IMG/VR virus record: IMGVR_UViG_3300020442_001277
Location: 1 to 40,381 of that record
Strand: one strand, 5' to 3'
DNA length: 40,381 nt
Origin: a virus
The stretch's first letter is position 1, and the number at the start of each line of letters is the position of its first letter. The position numbers and the translations under genes are program-made. The notes beneath the pieces were generated by a model that saw nothing but the letters and a program-made list of their open reading frames with translations, had not been told where the DNA came from and did not search any database. This document shows, in pieces, positions 4,886-10,330 of the stretch.

Positions 4886-7800
4886 TTACGAACGAACAAT
4901 AGTTTGATAATCAATTCTCTTGATTCTATACGTTGCTCCACCGTTACCTACGAGGTTCTCACCACCGAGAACCGCTTGTACAACTGCACCAGAACCAGTG
5001 GAATCTCCACCAGCATTTGTAAATACAGTTGTTGGATGATATGCATATGTGCCATCAACGCTTTGTTTAATCCCATATCCACCATTTGTGATATTTAAAG
5101 AAGCAACCTGGTCACCCGCAGTGGTCATGGTAACCGTAGCAGTTGCTTGTATATCACCAATATTTTCAATGGCAACTGTTGGTGTTCCTGTATAGTTAGT
5201 TCCTGGATTTTGAACTATAAAATCAACAACAGTTCCATCTTGAGAGAACTCATATAGTAATCCCCCAATACCAACGTTAATATTACCTGTATTAAATGGA
5301 ACTATGTCTTTAACTTGTAAAAGACTTAACGCAGGATCCCAAGAAACTACGGTTGCTCGCACTTGAGATACAGCACCTATGACAACTTCATTGACACTGA
5401 AGTTTGCACCATTACCTACATTAGGATCTAAGTAGATATTTAGGATAGCAGGATGGTCTACACCATCAGTAAGTGTACCTGCAGTGTCAACAGTTGCAAA
5501 CTTAAATGGTAAACTAGCGTCTTTTACTCTATCACCAACAGCGAATAGAGTTGTGTTAGTTCCACCTTGAGTTTCTTCAATACCATAAAGTGAATTATAT
5601 AAACCACCATCAAGACTAATCTGACCAGCATAATCTGTTCCAGTATTTACCAAGTCAGCAATACCATCACCTGCACCATCATTTTCAGCAATATCTTGGA
5701 ATGATCTATCAGTAAACAGTTGAATAGGAACTGTTAACAATGTGATGTTGCTACCATTTGTATTCAAAATAACATGAGGATCAAATCCTGATGGTGCACT
5801 TGCTGCAGTTCCTCCATCGAACTGAACAATAGCGTCTTCAGTAGAAGGTATACCACCATCAATAAACGCTAACTCGTCAACTTCAAATACGACTAATAAT
5901 TCTCTAGTTGCAGGATTCCAATCATAAACTTTTGCAATTTTATTGCTTGCACTTTCAACAGCACGGATTACAATATCCCCAACACTAAATTTATATGTTG
6001 ATATACCATTAGAATCATTTTGACCTGCGTCTAAAATAACACGTTGATCATAGTTAAAGTTTACACCACGAGTTAAACCAGAAAACTTACCAGCAGACTT
6101 AGAAGTATAACTGATAGTTTCGGTATTAAGAATAATAGCACCAGAACCAGGATATGCATCGGTGGAATCAACGAAGATTTCAGTATCTGCTGCAGCAACA
6201 TCTTTTACAACACCTGTTAAGTATATGAGAGAAGAGTTAAATGACTGTCTAGCATCTGATTTTCTCTTTAAATTAACTAATTTAGTAAAGATGATATTAG
6301 GTGCAGATGTGTAACCTTTACCTGGATCAGTTACATTAATACTTGTTATTCTACCCTGATCAATATTAGCGACTGCTTTTGCACCAATACCACCACCGCC
6401 AGTGACTAGAATGAATGGAGGTTCTTGATAGAACTCACCTTCATCTACCACAGAGATAGAGGTGACTTCACCAAGAGTGTCAATTTCTGCAGCACCTTGA
6501 GCACCTTGTCCACCACCACCTTCAAAAATAAGAGTTGGAGGAGTAGCATAATTTCTACCTTTGTTTAACAAAGATAAACCAGTAACAGTTTGTACGACGG
6601 GAGATGCTGTAGCACCAGTTCCCTGTCCACCTAAAATTTTTGCTGTTGCAGCACCAAAGAAGTTATCACCTTTCTTGGTCATTCTGACATAAGAAACTGT
6701 TCCAGAGTCAGTTAATATAACTTCTCCTTCTGCCTCTGATGGGAATACATCAACTTCTGATGGAACTGTATCACCTTCAAATAAAGGAACTCCATAGAAT
6801 CTACGACCAATAGCGTAAGGATAAGCAGGATTACCACTACTATCCTCAGTCATAAAGTATGCGTAAGTTCCATTTGGATACTCAGGTGTTACTGCAAATT
6901 TACCATTATATTCATCCAAAGTTCCTACAGATGAATCATAGATGTAATCATTTACTAGATCACCCAGTACATAACCATTATTAACTACCCTAATTCCAAA
7001 TCCAGTTCCAGTATATGAGAAAAGATACAATACATTAGGAGCATTTACAGGAACTGTAAATCTAATTTCTCTTGTTGTAGCACCATTAAAACCAGAGATA
7101 TATGATTGGTAAGTTGTTTCCGAACCATCGATATAATATTTTACGCCATTACCCTTAACTACAGGACCATCGTATAGATCATCTGTATTACCAACAATCG
7201 ATGGGTCTGATGTATGCCACCCATCTTCTTGTGAAGAAATCAACAATGTGCGATTTGCATTCGATGCATCATCTTGATTGAAAATATATGTTTTTCCTCT
7301 TTCAAGGTTTAAGAAACTAGGTGATGCTCCACCATAAACAAACTTGTCGTTTACAACTGTAATAGCATAAGTTACATTAGATACTGTATTGACTTGAGGT
7401 CTACTACCTTGCAATTCAATATTAGTTCTCAAACGATACGAAGAAGTTTCTCTAGCAACCGCACCACTAGCGTTATATCCCCAAGGACCGTAAATAGGAT
7501 ATCCATCAAAGGACATACCCAAAACTTTAGAGTGACCATCTACATGACGAGAACGATCAATAGTATTAGGATTATTTGAATCTGATTGATAATAATCTTC
7601 TAAGTAGTAATTATTTGGATGAGGTTCAACTTCGATCTCAGGATCCAGATACATATATCCTTCATGTCCCTCTTTACCAGACATGTCAGGATGATGTTTA
7701 CAGAAATAATATATAAATCCATTTTCATCCGCATTCATCAAGAAGATTGGTGCAAATTCATTCTCATAGTCAGCAGCAGGTGCTTGACTTACACCTGTGC

Positions 7801-9109
7801 TATTGTAATAAAGAGTACCTGGCGATGTATTATGAATACCATCTGCAGTGGTGCTGAACTGCATCGCATGACCTTGAGGATGTGCCTCTGATGGTCCGTT
7901 AGAACTATCAGACTGATTCCATATAATTAGATAATTTCTCTGAACTTTAATTCCTTCTGGAGCAAAGTAATATTGACCAGGAACAAAAGGACCAAATTCA
8001 TCTGCATCTGTTCCAAAATCAATATAAAAAATACCATTTGGTAATGCTTCTGGTTCTTCGGTAATAGTAAAACTAAATCCATTAGAACCTAAAACTTTAT
8101 CTCCTTGTGCAAAAGATGCACCAGTACTAACATTTCTTATGTAAATATTGGTAATAACATTTTGATTATTTCTAACAATTTTTGCAATTTCTCCTCTTGC
8201 TATTCCAGATATTTCATCAATAATTCTACCAACTTCGACAGAACCTAAGGTTTCATCGACTTGATTTACAGTAAGATAAAGATTATCAACTTCTACTTTA
8301 ATATTCCAAGTGAATATATTTTGTGGAGATATCTTACCCCATTCAAATACTCCATTATCAAGAGCAAATTCATCTATAACTTTACTTGACTGATAAAAAT
8401 ATGTGTTATTATCAATTACTGCGTCATAAGCGTTAGTGTTTTTTACATAATCATATTTTACTGTATCAATTTGGAATTCAGCTGGTGGATTTCCATCAGC
8501 ACCAAATTCGGGAGTATGCAGCAAACCACCGTTTGCCATAATACCGATAGCTTTATCAATTTGAATCTGTCTAGTACCTGGATTAGGAACGTCTTTTCCA
8601 CCACGATATATGAATGTTTGATCAAAAGATCTATCTGCAATTAAAGAGTTACCACCAGGTTGTCTCTCAACATCAATACCTGTATGCATTGATGGTTTAG
8701 GATGATTATCAGATTGTATTCTTAATCTATCAATCTTATCACCTGCGTTACTGGTAGAAAATACACCAGTTGTGGGTGAATTAGGATGACCTTGCCAAAT
8801 TCTATTAATATCAAAAGAGGTAACTACACTCGGAGTTTCCTGTAAAGGTGTAATCTTAAGTCTTAATGGATCGTAACCTCTTCCTCTGTTTAATACCCTA
8901 ACGTGAATAATTTTACCAGAGTCTTCATCAATAATTGGATATAATAATGCTTCTACATCAGGAGTTCCACAACCATTAACAGTCAAACGTGGTGGATCTG
9001 AAGGAACGTATCCCGATCCTCCGTCTAAAACGTTTACTGCTCGAACACCAAAAATTTCATCGAAAATCGGTTCGATTACAGCACCAGTACCAGGAACAGT
9101 TCTTGCCAT
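4886..9109 (-). CDS. Large virion protein with YHYH and cupredoxin-like domains
   Basis: 1,407 aa, not matched to any T4 protein. Beta repeats of the Gly-x-Gly-Tyr type occur at the N-terminus (DGGSGYVPSDPP, NRGRGYDPLR), again at about 850-960 (NKGRNYATPP, DPGKGYTSAP) and near the C-terminus (NPGTNYTGTP). Residues about 370-490 resemble a cupredoxin, with His414 and the pattern Cys470-x2-His473-x2-Met476. A YHYH-type domain starts at GMSFDGYPIYGPWG (about 530) and resumes at LDEYNGKFAVTPEYPNGTY (about 730). Between the two lies a second cupredoxin-like segment (YAITVV to IRVVNNGY) without the copper ligands. The ATG follows the 405-aa gene by 3 nt. A role as an outer baseplate or fibre protein is inferred from position between the gp7-like giant and gp8. 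The YHYH call is solid; the cupredoxin call is a motif-level judgement. Confidence 0.85.
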   Translation of the reverse strand: MARTVPGTGAVIEPIFDEIFGVRAVNVLDGGSGYVPSDPPRLTVNGCGTPDVEALLYPIIDEDSGKIIHVRVLNRGRGYDPLRLKITPLQETPSVVTSFDINRIWQGHPNSPTTGVFSTSNAGDKIDRLRIQSDNHPKPSMHTGIDVERQPGGNSLIADRSFDQTFIYRGGKDVPNPGTRQIQIDKAIGIMANGGLLHTPEFGADGNPPAEFQIDTVKYDYVKNTNAYDAVIDNNTYFYQSSKVIDEFALDNGVFEWGKISPQNIFTWNIKVEVDNLYLTVNQVDETLGSVEVGRIIDEISGIARGEIAKIVRNNQNVITNIYIRNVSTGASFAQGDKVLGSNGFSFTITEEPEALPNGIFYIDFGTDADEFGPFVPGQYYFAPEGIKVQRNYLIIWNQSDSSNGPSEAHPQGHAMQFSTTADGIHNTSPGTLYYNSTGVSQAPAADYENEFAPIFLMNADENGFIYYFCKHHPDMSGKEGHEGYMYLDPEIEVEPHPNNYYLEDYYQSDSNNPNTIDRSRHVDGHSKVLGMSFDGYPIYGPWGYNASGAVARETSSYRLRTNIELQGSRPQVNTVSNVTYAITVVNDKFVYGGASPSFLNLERGKTYIFNQDDASNANRTLLISSQEDGWHTSDPSIVGNTDDLYDGPVVKGNGVKYYIDGSETTYQSYISGFNGATTREIRFTVPVNAPNVLYLFSYTGTGFGIRVVNNGYVLGDLVNDYIYDSSVGTLDEYNGKFAVTPEYPNGTYAYFMTEDSSGNPAYPYAIGRRFYGVPLFEGDTVPSEVDVFPSEAEGEVILTDSGTVSYVRMTKKGDNFFGAATAKILGGQGTGATASPVVQTVTGLSLLNKGRNYATPPTLIFEGGGGQGAQGAAEIDTLGEVTSISVVDEGEFYQEPPFILVTGGGGIGAKAVANIDQGRITSINVTDPGKGYTSAPNIIFTKLVNLKRKSDARQSFNSSLIYLTGVVKDVAAADTEIFVDSTDAYPGSGAIILNTETISYTSKSAGKFSGLTRGVNFNYDQRVILDAGQNDSNGISTYKFSVGDIVIRAVESASNKIAKVYDWNPATRELLVVFEVDELAFIDGGIPSTEDAIVQFDGGTAASAPSGFDPHVILNTNGSNITLLTVPIQLFTDRSFQDIAENDGAGDGIADLVNTGTDYAGQISLDGGLYNSLYGIEETQGGTNTTLFAVGDRVKDASLPFKFATVDTAGTLTDGVDHPAILNIYLDPNVGNGANFSVNEVVIGAVSQVRATVVSWDPALSLLQVKDIVPFNTGNINVGIGGLLYEFSQDGTVVDFIVQNPGTNYTGTPTVAIENIGDIQATATVTMTTAGDQVASLNITNGGYGIKQSVDGTYAYHPTTVFTNAGGDSTGSGAVVQAVLGGENLVGNGGATYRIKRIDYQTIVRS

Positions 9110-9112
9110 TTA

Positions 9113-10330
9113 TTAGCTTACGATGTTAATTTGACCTTGCATTGCTGCGTGAATTGTACACTGATAATACAGTGTAGCAGGAGCATCCATAGGAACAGTG
9201 AAATACAACACAGAAGTTCCACTACCAGATTGACCTGTAGTGTATGGAGTACCCGATAATCCTTGAGTAGATTGAATTCTAAAAGGATGATTACCACCAG
9301 TGTTATTATCAAAAGCGTATGTCATACCTCTCATTAGATAGAGAGTAGGATCATTTGTTGCAGTTGCAAAACCAGGACCAGTGAATGTGTAATCACTAGC
9401 ACCATTTGCATCTAATTCCCACCAAGTAATAGGACTACGAGTAGGAATCCAGTTAGTCCCATTCCAGAATAATGAGTCACCTTGAACGATACCTGTTACG
9501 TTTGTATCTGTTAAAGCAGCAAATGTTGTAGTAAGAGATCCGCTAAAGTTAATAGTTAAAGTATCACCAGTAACCGATGTCGTAATATTTGTGCCACCAG
9601 CAATAGTTAATGTATCGGTTTGTGAATTTGCAGTGGTAGATCCTGTATCAGCACCAACTGTTTGGAAAACGTTGATAGAACTTACACCTGCGTTATCATC
9701 ACCAGGTACCCAATTAGTTCCATTCCATTTTAAAACTTGATTAGATGTTGGAGCAACAGTTGTAATATCTACATTTGCAAGATCACCAATACCAGAGTAT
9801 TGTGTTAAAAGAGACGCTCTAGTGTCACCAACACCGCCAGCAGTAATATTGATATTTACATATGGTTTATCATCACCATCTACAGTGAAGAAGTAACCAG
9901 GATAACCAGCTGCAGAAGGTGCAGCACCAAGAGATGAATATTCATTTTTAAATTTCACCTTAGTGGGCATATTAATTTCGCCCGTAGCACCATCAAATGT
10001 GCTAGTTATTGAACCTGCAGAAAAAAGAATATCTCCAGTTCCATTTGCAGAAAGTGAAATATTACCATTAGATGAAGAAACAATAGAGTTTCCATTAACA
10101 TCTAATGCAGATGTCAAGTTAGAATAATCACTAGCAGCAAACTGCGAACCATTATATCTTAAGACTTGTCCAGTAGCAGGATTGGTAACATTTACAGTTA
10201 AAGTGCTACCATTACCTAACGCTGAATAAATCTCATTAAAATTATCATTGATCTTATCGCCACCAACACGAAGAGTATCACCTGTGTTATCATTAGCTGA
10301 GGTTCCAAGACCTAAGGATTGTTTAGCCAT
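9113..10330 (-). CDS. Fibre-like virion protein with C-terminal cupredoxin-like domain
   Basis: 405 aa. The N-terminus (MAKQSLGLGTSANDNTGDTL, then KINDNFNEIYSALG) is the usual opening of fibre or structural proteins in marine T4-like phages. The middle is Ser/Thr/Gly/Asn-rich with tail-fibre phrases such as VLKWNGTNWVPGDD, LTIAGGTNI and LFWNGTNWIPT. The last ~105 residues look like a cupredoxin fold: a strand with GNHPFRIQS (His348), VPMDAPATLYYQ, then CTIHAAMQGQI, placing Cys391, His394 and Met397 in the Cys-x2-His-x2-Met spacing of amicyanin. A late promoter candidate overlaps the stop of the upstream giant gene, 20 nt before this ATG. Probably displayed on the baseplate periphery or a fibre. 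Metal binding is inferred, and the domain may be used only as a scaffold. Confidence 0.87.
   Translation of the reverse strand: MAKQSLGLGTSANDNTGDTLRVGGDKINDNFNEIYSALGNGSTLTVNVTNPATGQVLRYNGSQFAASDYSNLTSALDVNGNSIVSSSNGNISLSANGTGDILFSAGSITSTFDGATGEINMPTKVKFKNEYSSLGAAPSAAGYPGYFFTVDGDDKPYVNINITAGGVGDTRASLLTQYSGIGDLANVDITTVAPTSNQVLKWNGTNWVPGDDNAGVSSINVFQTVGADTGSTTANSQTDTLTIAGGTNITTSVTGDTLTINFSGSLTTTFAALTDTNVTGIVQGDSLFWNGTNWIPTRSPITWWELDANGASDYTFTGPGFATATNDPTLYLMRGMTYAFDNNTGGNHPFRIQSTQGLSGTPYTTGQSGSGTSVLYFTVPMDAPATLYYQCTIHAAMQGQINIVS

Follow-up and report, generated by a model that had tools for sequence, protein, structure and literature searches.

We analyzed a window of 40,381 bases, a single virus record that derives from a T4-like marine phage. 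On its minus strand, the genes are arranged in the order gp25, gp6, a giant gene, gp9-like, gp10-like and gp8-like (Table 1), with gp25 and gp6 named by eye. By position only, the giant gene corresponds to SSM1_102 (T4-GC969) of phage S-SM1; the S-SM1 study reports SSM1_102 as a virion protein by mass spectrometry, and the virion proteome as 41 proteins (PMC3037559).

The product of the gp9-like gene is a full-length match (E = 1.3e-196) to phrog_677 (baseplate wedge tail fiber protein connector), and its N-terminal region matched Pfam family PF07880 (T4_gp9_10_N; E = 5.8e-11). Together, the full-length profile match and the gp9/gp10-type N-terminal domain place the protein in the gp9 family. 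Its closest named relatives, by tblastn of phage records, were gp9 of Synechococcus phages S-SM1 and S-SSM5. A first-pass annotation had described a fiber-like protein, which is more exactly a gp9-like connector of baseplate and tail fiber, and had noted four potential copper ligands near its end. Translation of the frame bore out all four residues (H348, C391, H394 and M397) in the spacing proposed, with the last three in the loop C-T-I-H-A-A-M. The domain boundary at 9420 given in that annotation is out of frame and needs to be moved to 9424.

Table 1. Features of the window discussed in the text
Feature	Size or residues	Position	Strand	Basis
Giant open frame	6611 aa	10354-30189	-	Single frame
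gp9-like baseplate wedge/tail-fiber connector gene	405 aa	9113..10330	-	phrog_677, PF07880, tblastn matches to gp9-annotated phages
T4_gp9_10_N baseplate-anchoring domain of gp9	3-134	9929..10324	-	PF07880
C-terminal cupredoxin-type domain of gp9 (predicted)	303-405 + stop	9113..9424	-	AF2, Foldseek PDB, profile matches in PDB
His348 codon, putative N-terminal His ligand (H-P-F)	348	9287..9289	-	Translation, family alignments
Cys391 codon, putative thiolate ligand	391	9158..9160	-	Translation, family alignments
His394 codon, putative C-terminal His ligand	394	9149..9151	-	Translation, family alignments
Met397 codon, putative axial ligand	397	9140..9142	-	Translation, family alignments
gp10-like baseplate wedge gene	1407 aa	4886..9109	-	phrog_708, E 0
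Second cupredoxin-type domain (copy A), in gp10-like protein	362-488	7646..8026	-	Conservation in relatives, hhalign
Third, degenerate copy (copy B), in gp10-like protein, without ligands	574-703	7001..7390	-	
YHYH domain stretch of gp10-like protein, after copy B	714-757	6839..6970	-	PF14240, E 7.7e-17, two stretches

Fold and ligand residues of the gp9 terminal domain

The terminal domain of gp9 was modeled with AlphaFold2 from a 60-sequence alignment. The model has nine strands (pLDDT 97.6, pTM 0.88), in agreement with the terminal beta domain assumed in the first-pass annotation, and shows a Greek-key beta-sandwich. When it was compared to the PDB with Foldseek, the top matches were all cupredoxins: rusticyanin came first, followed by amicyanin, Cu-nitrite reductase (CuNiR) and plastocyanin, each with probability 1.00. 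TM-scores to these solved structures were moderate (0.45–0.57), with rmsd of about 5 Å. In the model, His46 (domain numbering) lies just before strand 48–51, Cys89 ends strand 84–89, and Met95 lies just before strand 96–102, which is the layout of blue copper proteins.

Profile comparisons pointed the same way. The profile of family alignment A5 matched PDB entries for CuNiR (4e-7), amicyanin (1.6e-6), plastocyanin (9e-6) and rusticyanin (1.2e-5). In these alignments, the Cys, second His and Met of the family match the copper ligands of the known cupredoxins. The first His aligns with the type-1 His of nitrite reductase and, versus amicyanin, is off by one. The Pfam Copper-bind family (PF00127) was matched by 7 of 16 family members (best E, 7e-5), while the window domain itself gave no match to it and hit only At5g54830-like and DUF1942, both below threshold. 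A phmmer search of the PDB with the single window domain returned glycoside hydrolases and amylases at E of 0.03–0.8; these matches covered the non-ligand part only and were dismissed as chance in favor of the profile results. Going by the modeled fold and by profile, the terminal 103 residues of gp9 are a cupredoxin. They contain the elements of a type-1 copper site in canonical order, with His, Cys and His as equatorial ligands and Met as the axial one. Judging from fold and register, the four side chains would converge.

Cys391 is the only cysteine, and His348 and His394 the only histidines, among all 405 residues, and none of 20,000 shuffled versions of the protein contained the pattern H-x25-70-C-x2-H-x2-M. 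We then asked how well the ligands are kept. In three scans of viral contigs, with seed peptides that excluded the ligands, all 152 gp9 ORFs with complete C-termini retained His, Cys, His and Met, contrary to what free substitution in close relatives would predict. The ligand loop reads C-x2-H-x2-M in 140 of these ORFs, C-x2-H-x3-M in 11 and C-x4-H-x2-M in one; loop length is thus changed in 12 of 152 around unchanged ligands. Loop length varies among true blue copper proteins as well. Among 98 distinct complete C-termini, with identities down to 31% and an effective number of about 21 at 80% identity, the four ligand positions are among 14 that are invariant.

The invariant columns of 16 ligand-bearing phage domains (25–53% identity) were only G, H, P, Y, C, H and M; the invariance in alignment A1 stems partly from selection, its members having been picked among ligand-bearing matches with the ligand-less PSS2 left out. 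Overall, all four ligands were found in 285 of 300 unique gap-free domains, and a proline directly follows the first His in 272 of these 285. Alignment A5 includes the rows of A3, whose scan seed contained Y-x-C-x2-H, so its invariance also owes something to selection; this is unlike the counts from the 152 gp9 ORFs, from which the A3 scan was excluded. In bacterial homologues, collected with seeds outside the motif, the ligand set was kept at 16 of 17 loci, and the remaining locus had lost all of it. Ligand-less copies of the domain also occur (PSS2, L195 and copy B of gp10). Because these degenerate copies keep the family sequence, the fold can do without the ligands. At another locus (L170, 28-426), the axial Met of one copy is replaced by Gln (H..C-x2-H-x2-Q), an exchange known from stellacyanin.

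Copies in gp10 and in other proteins

The gp10-like protein contains two further copies. The ligands of copy A (His414, Cys470, His473 and Met476) are invariant in 31 aligned relatives, and C-H-M is kept in 69 of 69 sequences retrieved with an anchor independent of these residues. By hhalign, copy A matched the gp9-type family with the ligands in register (probability 92%, E = 6e-7). Its AlphaFold2 model was of low confidence (pLDDT 66.7), and a PDB search gave no significant match, the best being plastocyanin at E = 1.1. Homologues of the degenerate copy B in S-ShM2 and ACG-2014d retain H..C-x2/3-H..M. Copy B adjoins or sits within the YHYH domain (window 6839-7390, minus strand), and seems to be flanked on both sides by YHYH stretches, the first of which was recognized by eye. 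A YHYH-like stretch is seemingly also present, again by eye, in the giant protein.

Of 50,697 phage records searched, 355 matched (E ≤ 0.01), all of them from marine phages. Cyanophages made up nearly all of these, joined by a few phages of Pelagibacter and Methylophilales; no enterobacterial T4-like phage matched. Many marine phages have the domain in tail fibers and in further proteins of the virion, and 10 of 11 large phage records had one to four detectable copies within long open frames. In several cases (L154, L156, L163, L118 and L170), multiple cupredoxin-type copies occur within single large phage proteins, some of them degenerate, for example with Y/F-C-Y-Y replacing H-C-H-M.

In bacteria, the domain terminates secreted-type proteins that bear CHRD or Lipoprotein_15 domains. 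Flavobacteriia proteins of this kind (L182, L183, L184, L185, L189 and L191, the Pfam check covering L182, L183 and L191) have the same terminal domain with all ligands. One phage gp9 (L180) lies on a contig attributed to a MAG of Rhodopirellula; the contig is probably phage DNA binned with the bacterium. In BFVD, the gp9 domain model matched A0A481Z6J5 and A0A481YWX9 (E of 2e-7 to 2e-6), which are small proteins labeled 'beta-sandwich protein' from pithovirus- and marseillevirus-like records.

Probable metal binding and its possible role

Sequence and model strongly imply that the gp9 domain binds copper. With a cupredoxin fold and profile, and ligands kept across changes in loop length, a metal site explains the domain far better than any alternative, and the metal would most likely be copper, as Cu(I)/Cu(II). 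That copper is bound in the particle itself we regard as probable. Several points count against it: TM-scores to solved cupredoxins are only moderate, a proline follows the first His in most domains, phages assemble in the cytoplasm, where free copper is scarce, and the domain can live without the metal site, as PSS2, L195 and copy B attest.

The same ligand-less copies, in gp10 and elsewhere, would fit a domain that is metal-free in the particle and serves as a beta-sandwich for adhesion or as a fiber joint, its ligand residues simply inherited. We consider this rather unlikely, since the set is kept in every gp9 ORF and every copy A sequence examined, and loops that change in length retain their ligands. 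The idea that an unrelated beta domain happens to contain His, Cys and Met by coincidence has nothing in its favor except the shortness of the motif. The invariant columns, the complete retention in gp9, the shuffles and the convergence of profile and fold on cupredoxins leave it with a negligible probability, and in practice refute it. Instead of blue copper, the domain could hold a different ion (Zn, Cu(I) only or a thiophilic metal of the Hg type) in a purely structural site, which would suit both cytoplasmic assembly and the proline that stands where Asn or Ser would be expected after the first His. Yet a cupredoxin fold that combines His, Cys and His with an axial Met shows the pattern typical of copper, and a Zn-type fourth ligand is missing; we judge such a site quite improbable.

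What copper would do in the baseplate is a separate question. T4 gp9 holds the long tail fiber. In the marine phage, the T4_gp9_10_N domain would hold gp9 to the wedge, and the cupredoxin domain would be presented outward, where T4 gp9 carries its fiber-binding domain. Bound metal would link the loop with the first His to the Cys-x2-His-x2-Met loop, and the linked loops could stiffen the surface that joins the fiber or neighboring baseplate proteins. Among a structural metal lock, host contact and redox sensing, we favor the lock, although a role as lock alone, suggested by position, is a tentative assignment. A type-1 site could instead be redox-active, or swap copper or thiolate ligands at the host surface with a porin, a periplasmic protein or a copper-bearing protein, and so signal to the baseplate. 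Electron-transfer proteins use this same set of ligands, the domain resides in baseplate and tail-fiber proteins, which contact the host, and bound iron has been proposed to mediate host contact in marine phage tails (PMC11705849). However, no redox partner is encoded within the window, hosts differ widely, and the variety of virion proteins and secreted bacterial proteins that have the domain suggests a general module. We think such a trigger unlikely. With a second putative site of the gp9 kind in the gp10-like neighbor, each virion might hold metal ions by the tens, if copy numbers are as in T4.

Marine phage particles may well carry copper, going by these sequences and models. A broader proposal would be that copper is incorporated into baseplates and tail fibers throughout the marine T4-like phages via an HPF-type cupredoxin family, that free virions are copper-bearing, and that infectivity or fiber assembly depends on copper; the family would then be large, unrecognized, and common to bacterial secreted proteins and perhaps giant viruses. 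We put this forward as a possibility, somewhat short of an even chance. A search of the open literature, with subscription papers and preprints outside its scope, found nothing relevant on cupredoxins together with phage, baseplate or tail fiber, and nothing tying them to cyanophages beyond one passing co-mention. As far as that search goes, blue-copper-type domains are undescribed as conserved structural parts of phage baseplates. If copper is bound, some of the ocean's commonest viruses have metal just where the particle meets its host. This would bear on assembly and attachment of these phages, on copper limitation or toxicity during cyanobacterial infection, and on the idea of marine virus particles as metal carriers. 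The copper question is directly testable with the 103-residue domain.

Comparison with known systems

The first-pass annotation likened the site to that of amicyanin. With respect to Paracoccus denitrificans amicyanin (PDB 1aac among others), the likeness holds for the C-x2-H-x2-M loop, for the N-terminal His on a neighboring loop and for the cupredoxin fold, and fails for the setting and for the residue after the first His. Amicyanin is a free periplasmic electron carrier, whereas the phage domain, with a TM-score of about 0.45 to it, is the C-terminus of a virion protein. Amicyanin has Asn after its His53, and the phage domain has Pro. The residue after the first His, Asn54 in amicyanin and Ser86 in rusticyanin, tunes the copper site (PMC12723479). 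Proline at this position implies a second sphere different from that of classical blue sites, which leaves room for a different metal or for Cu(I) alone. Amicyanin and plastocyanin proper have a polar Asn or Ser at this position and are free-standing, exported electron carriers; the gp9 terminal domain is accordingly described as a cupredoxin with an amicyanin-length ligand loop and is not classed as amicyanin. Plastocyanin and rusticyanin, the latter providing the top Foldseek matches, share the fold and the four ligand types but have longer ligand loops and are soluble electron carriers. The plastocyanin gene petE of cyanophages is a separate, host-derived gene (PMC3037559).

Among phage proteins, T4 gp9 shares the gp9/gp10-type N-terminal domain (PF07880), but the cupredoxin domain is confined to marine phages in the 50,697 records searched. 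Cyanophage gp9 proteins (phrog_677; S-SM1, S-SSM5 and Syn9) are full-length homologues with the same terminal domain and the same synteny of giant virion gene, gp9 and gp10-like gene; they differ in that their existing annotations mention neither a cupredoxin nor a copper site. Alteromonas phage R22Y, for which iron-binding HxH domains have been proposed in the tail fiber (PMC11705849), likewise places a putative metal in a marine phage tail, but there the metal is iron and is held by HxH motifs, with ligands other than those of the gp9 domain.
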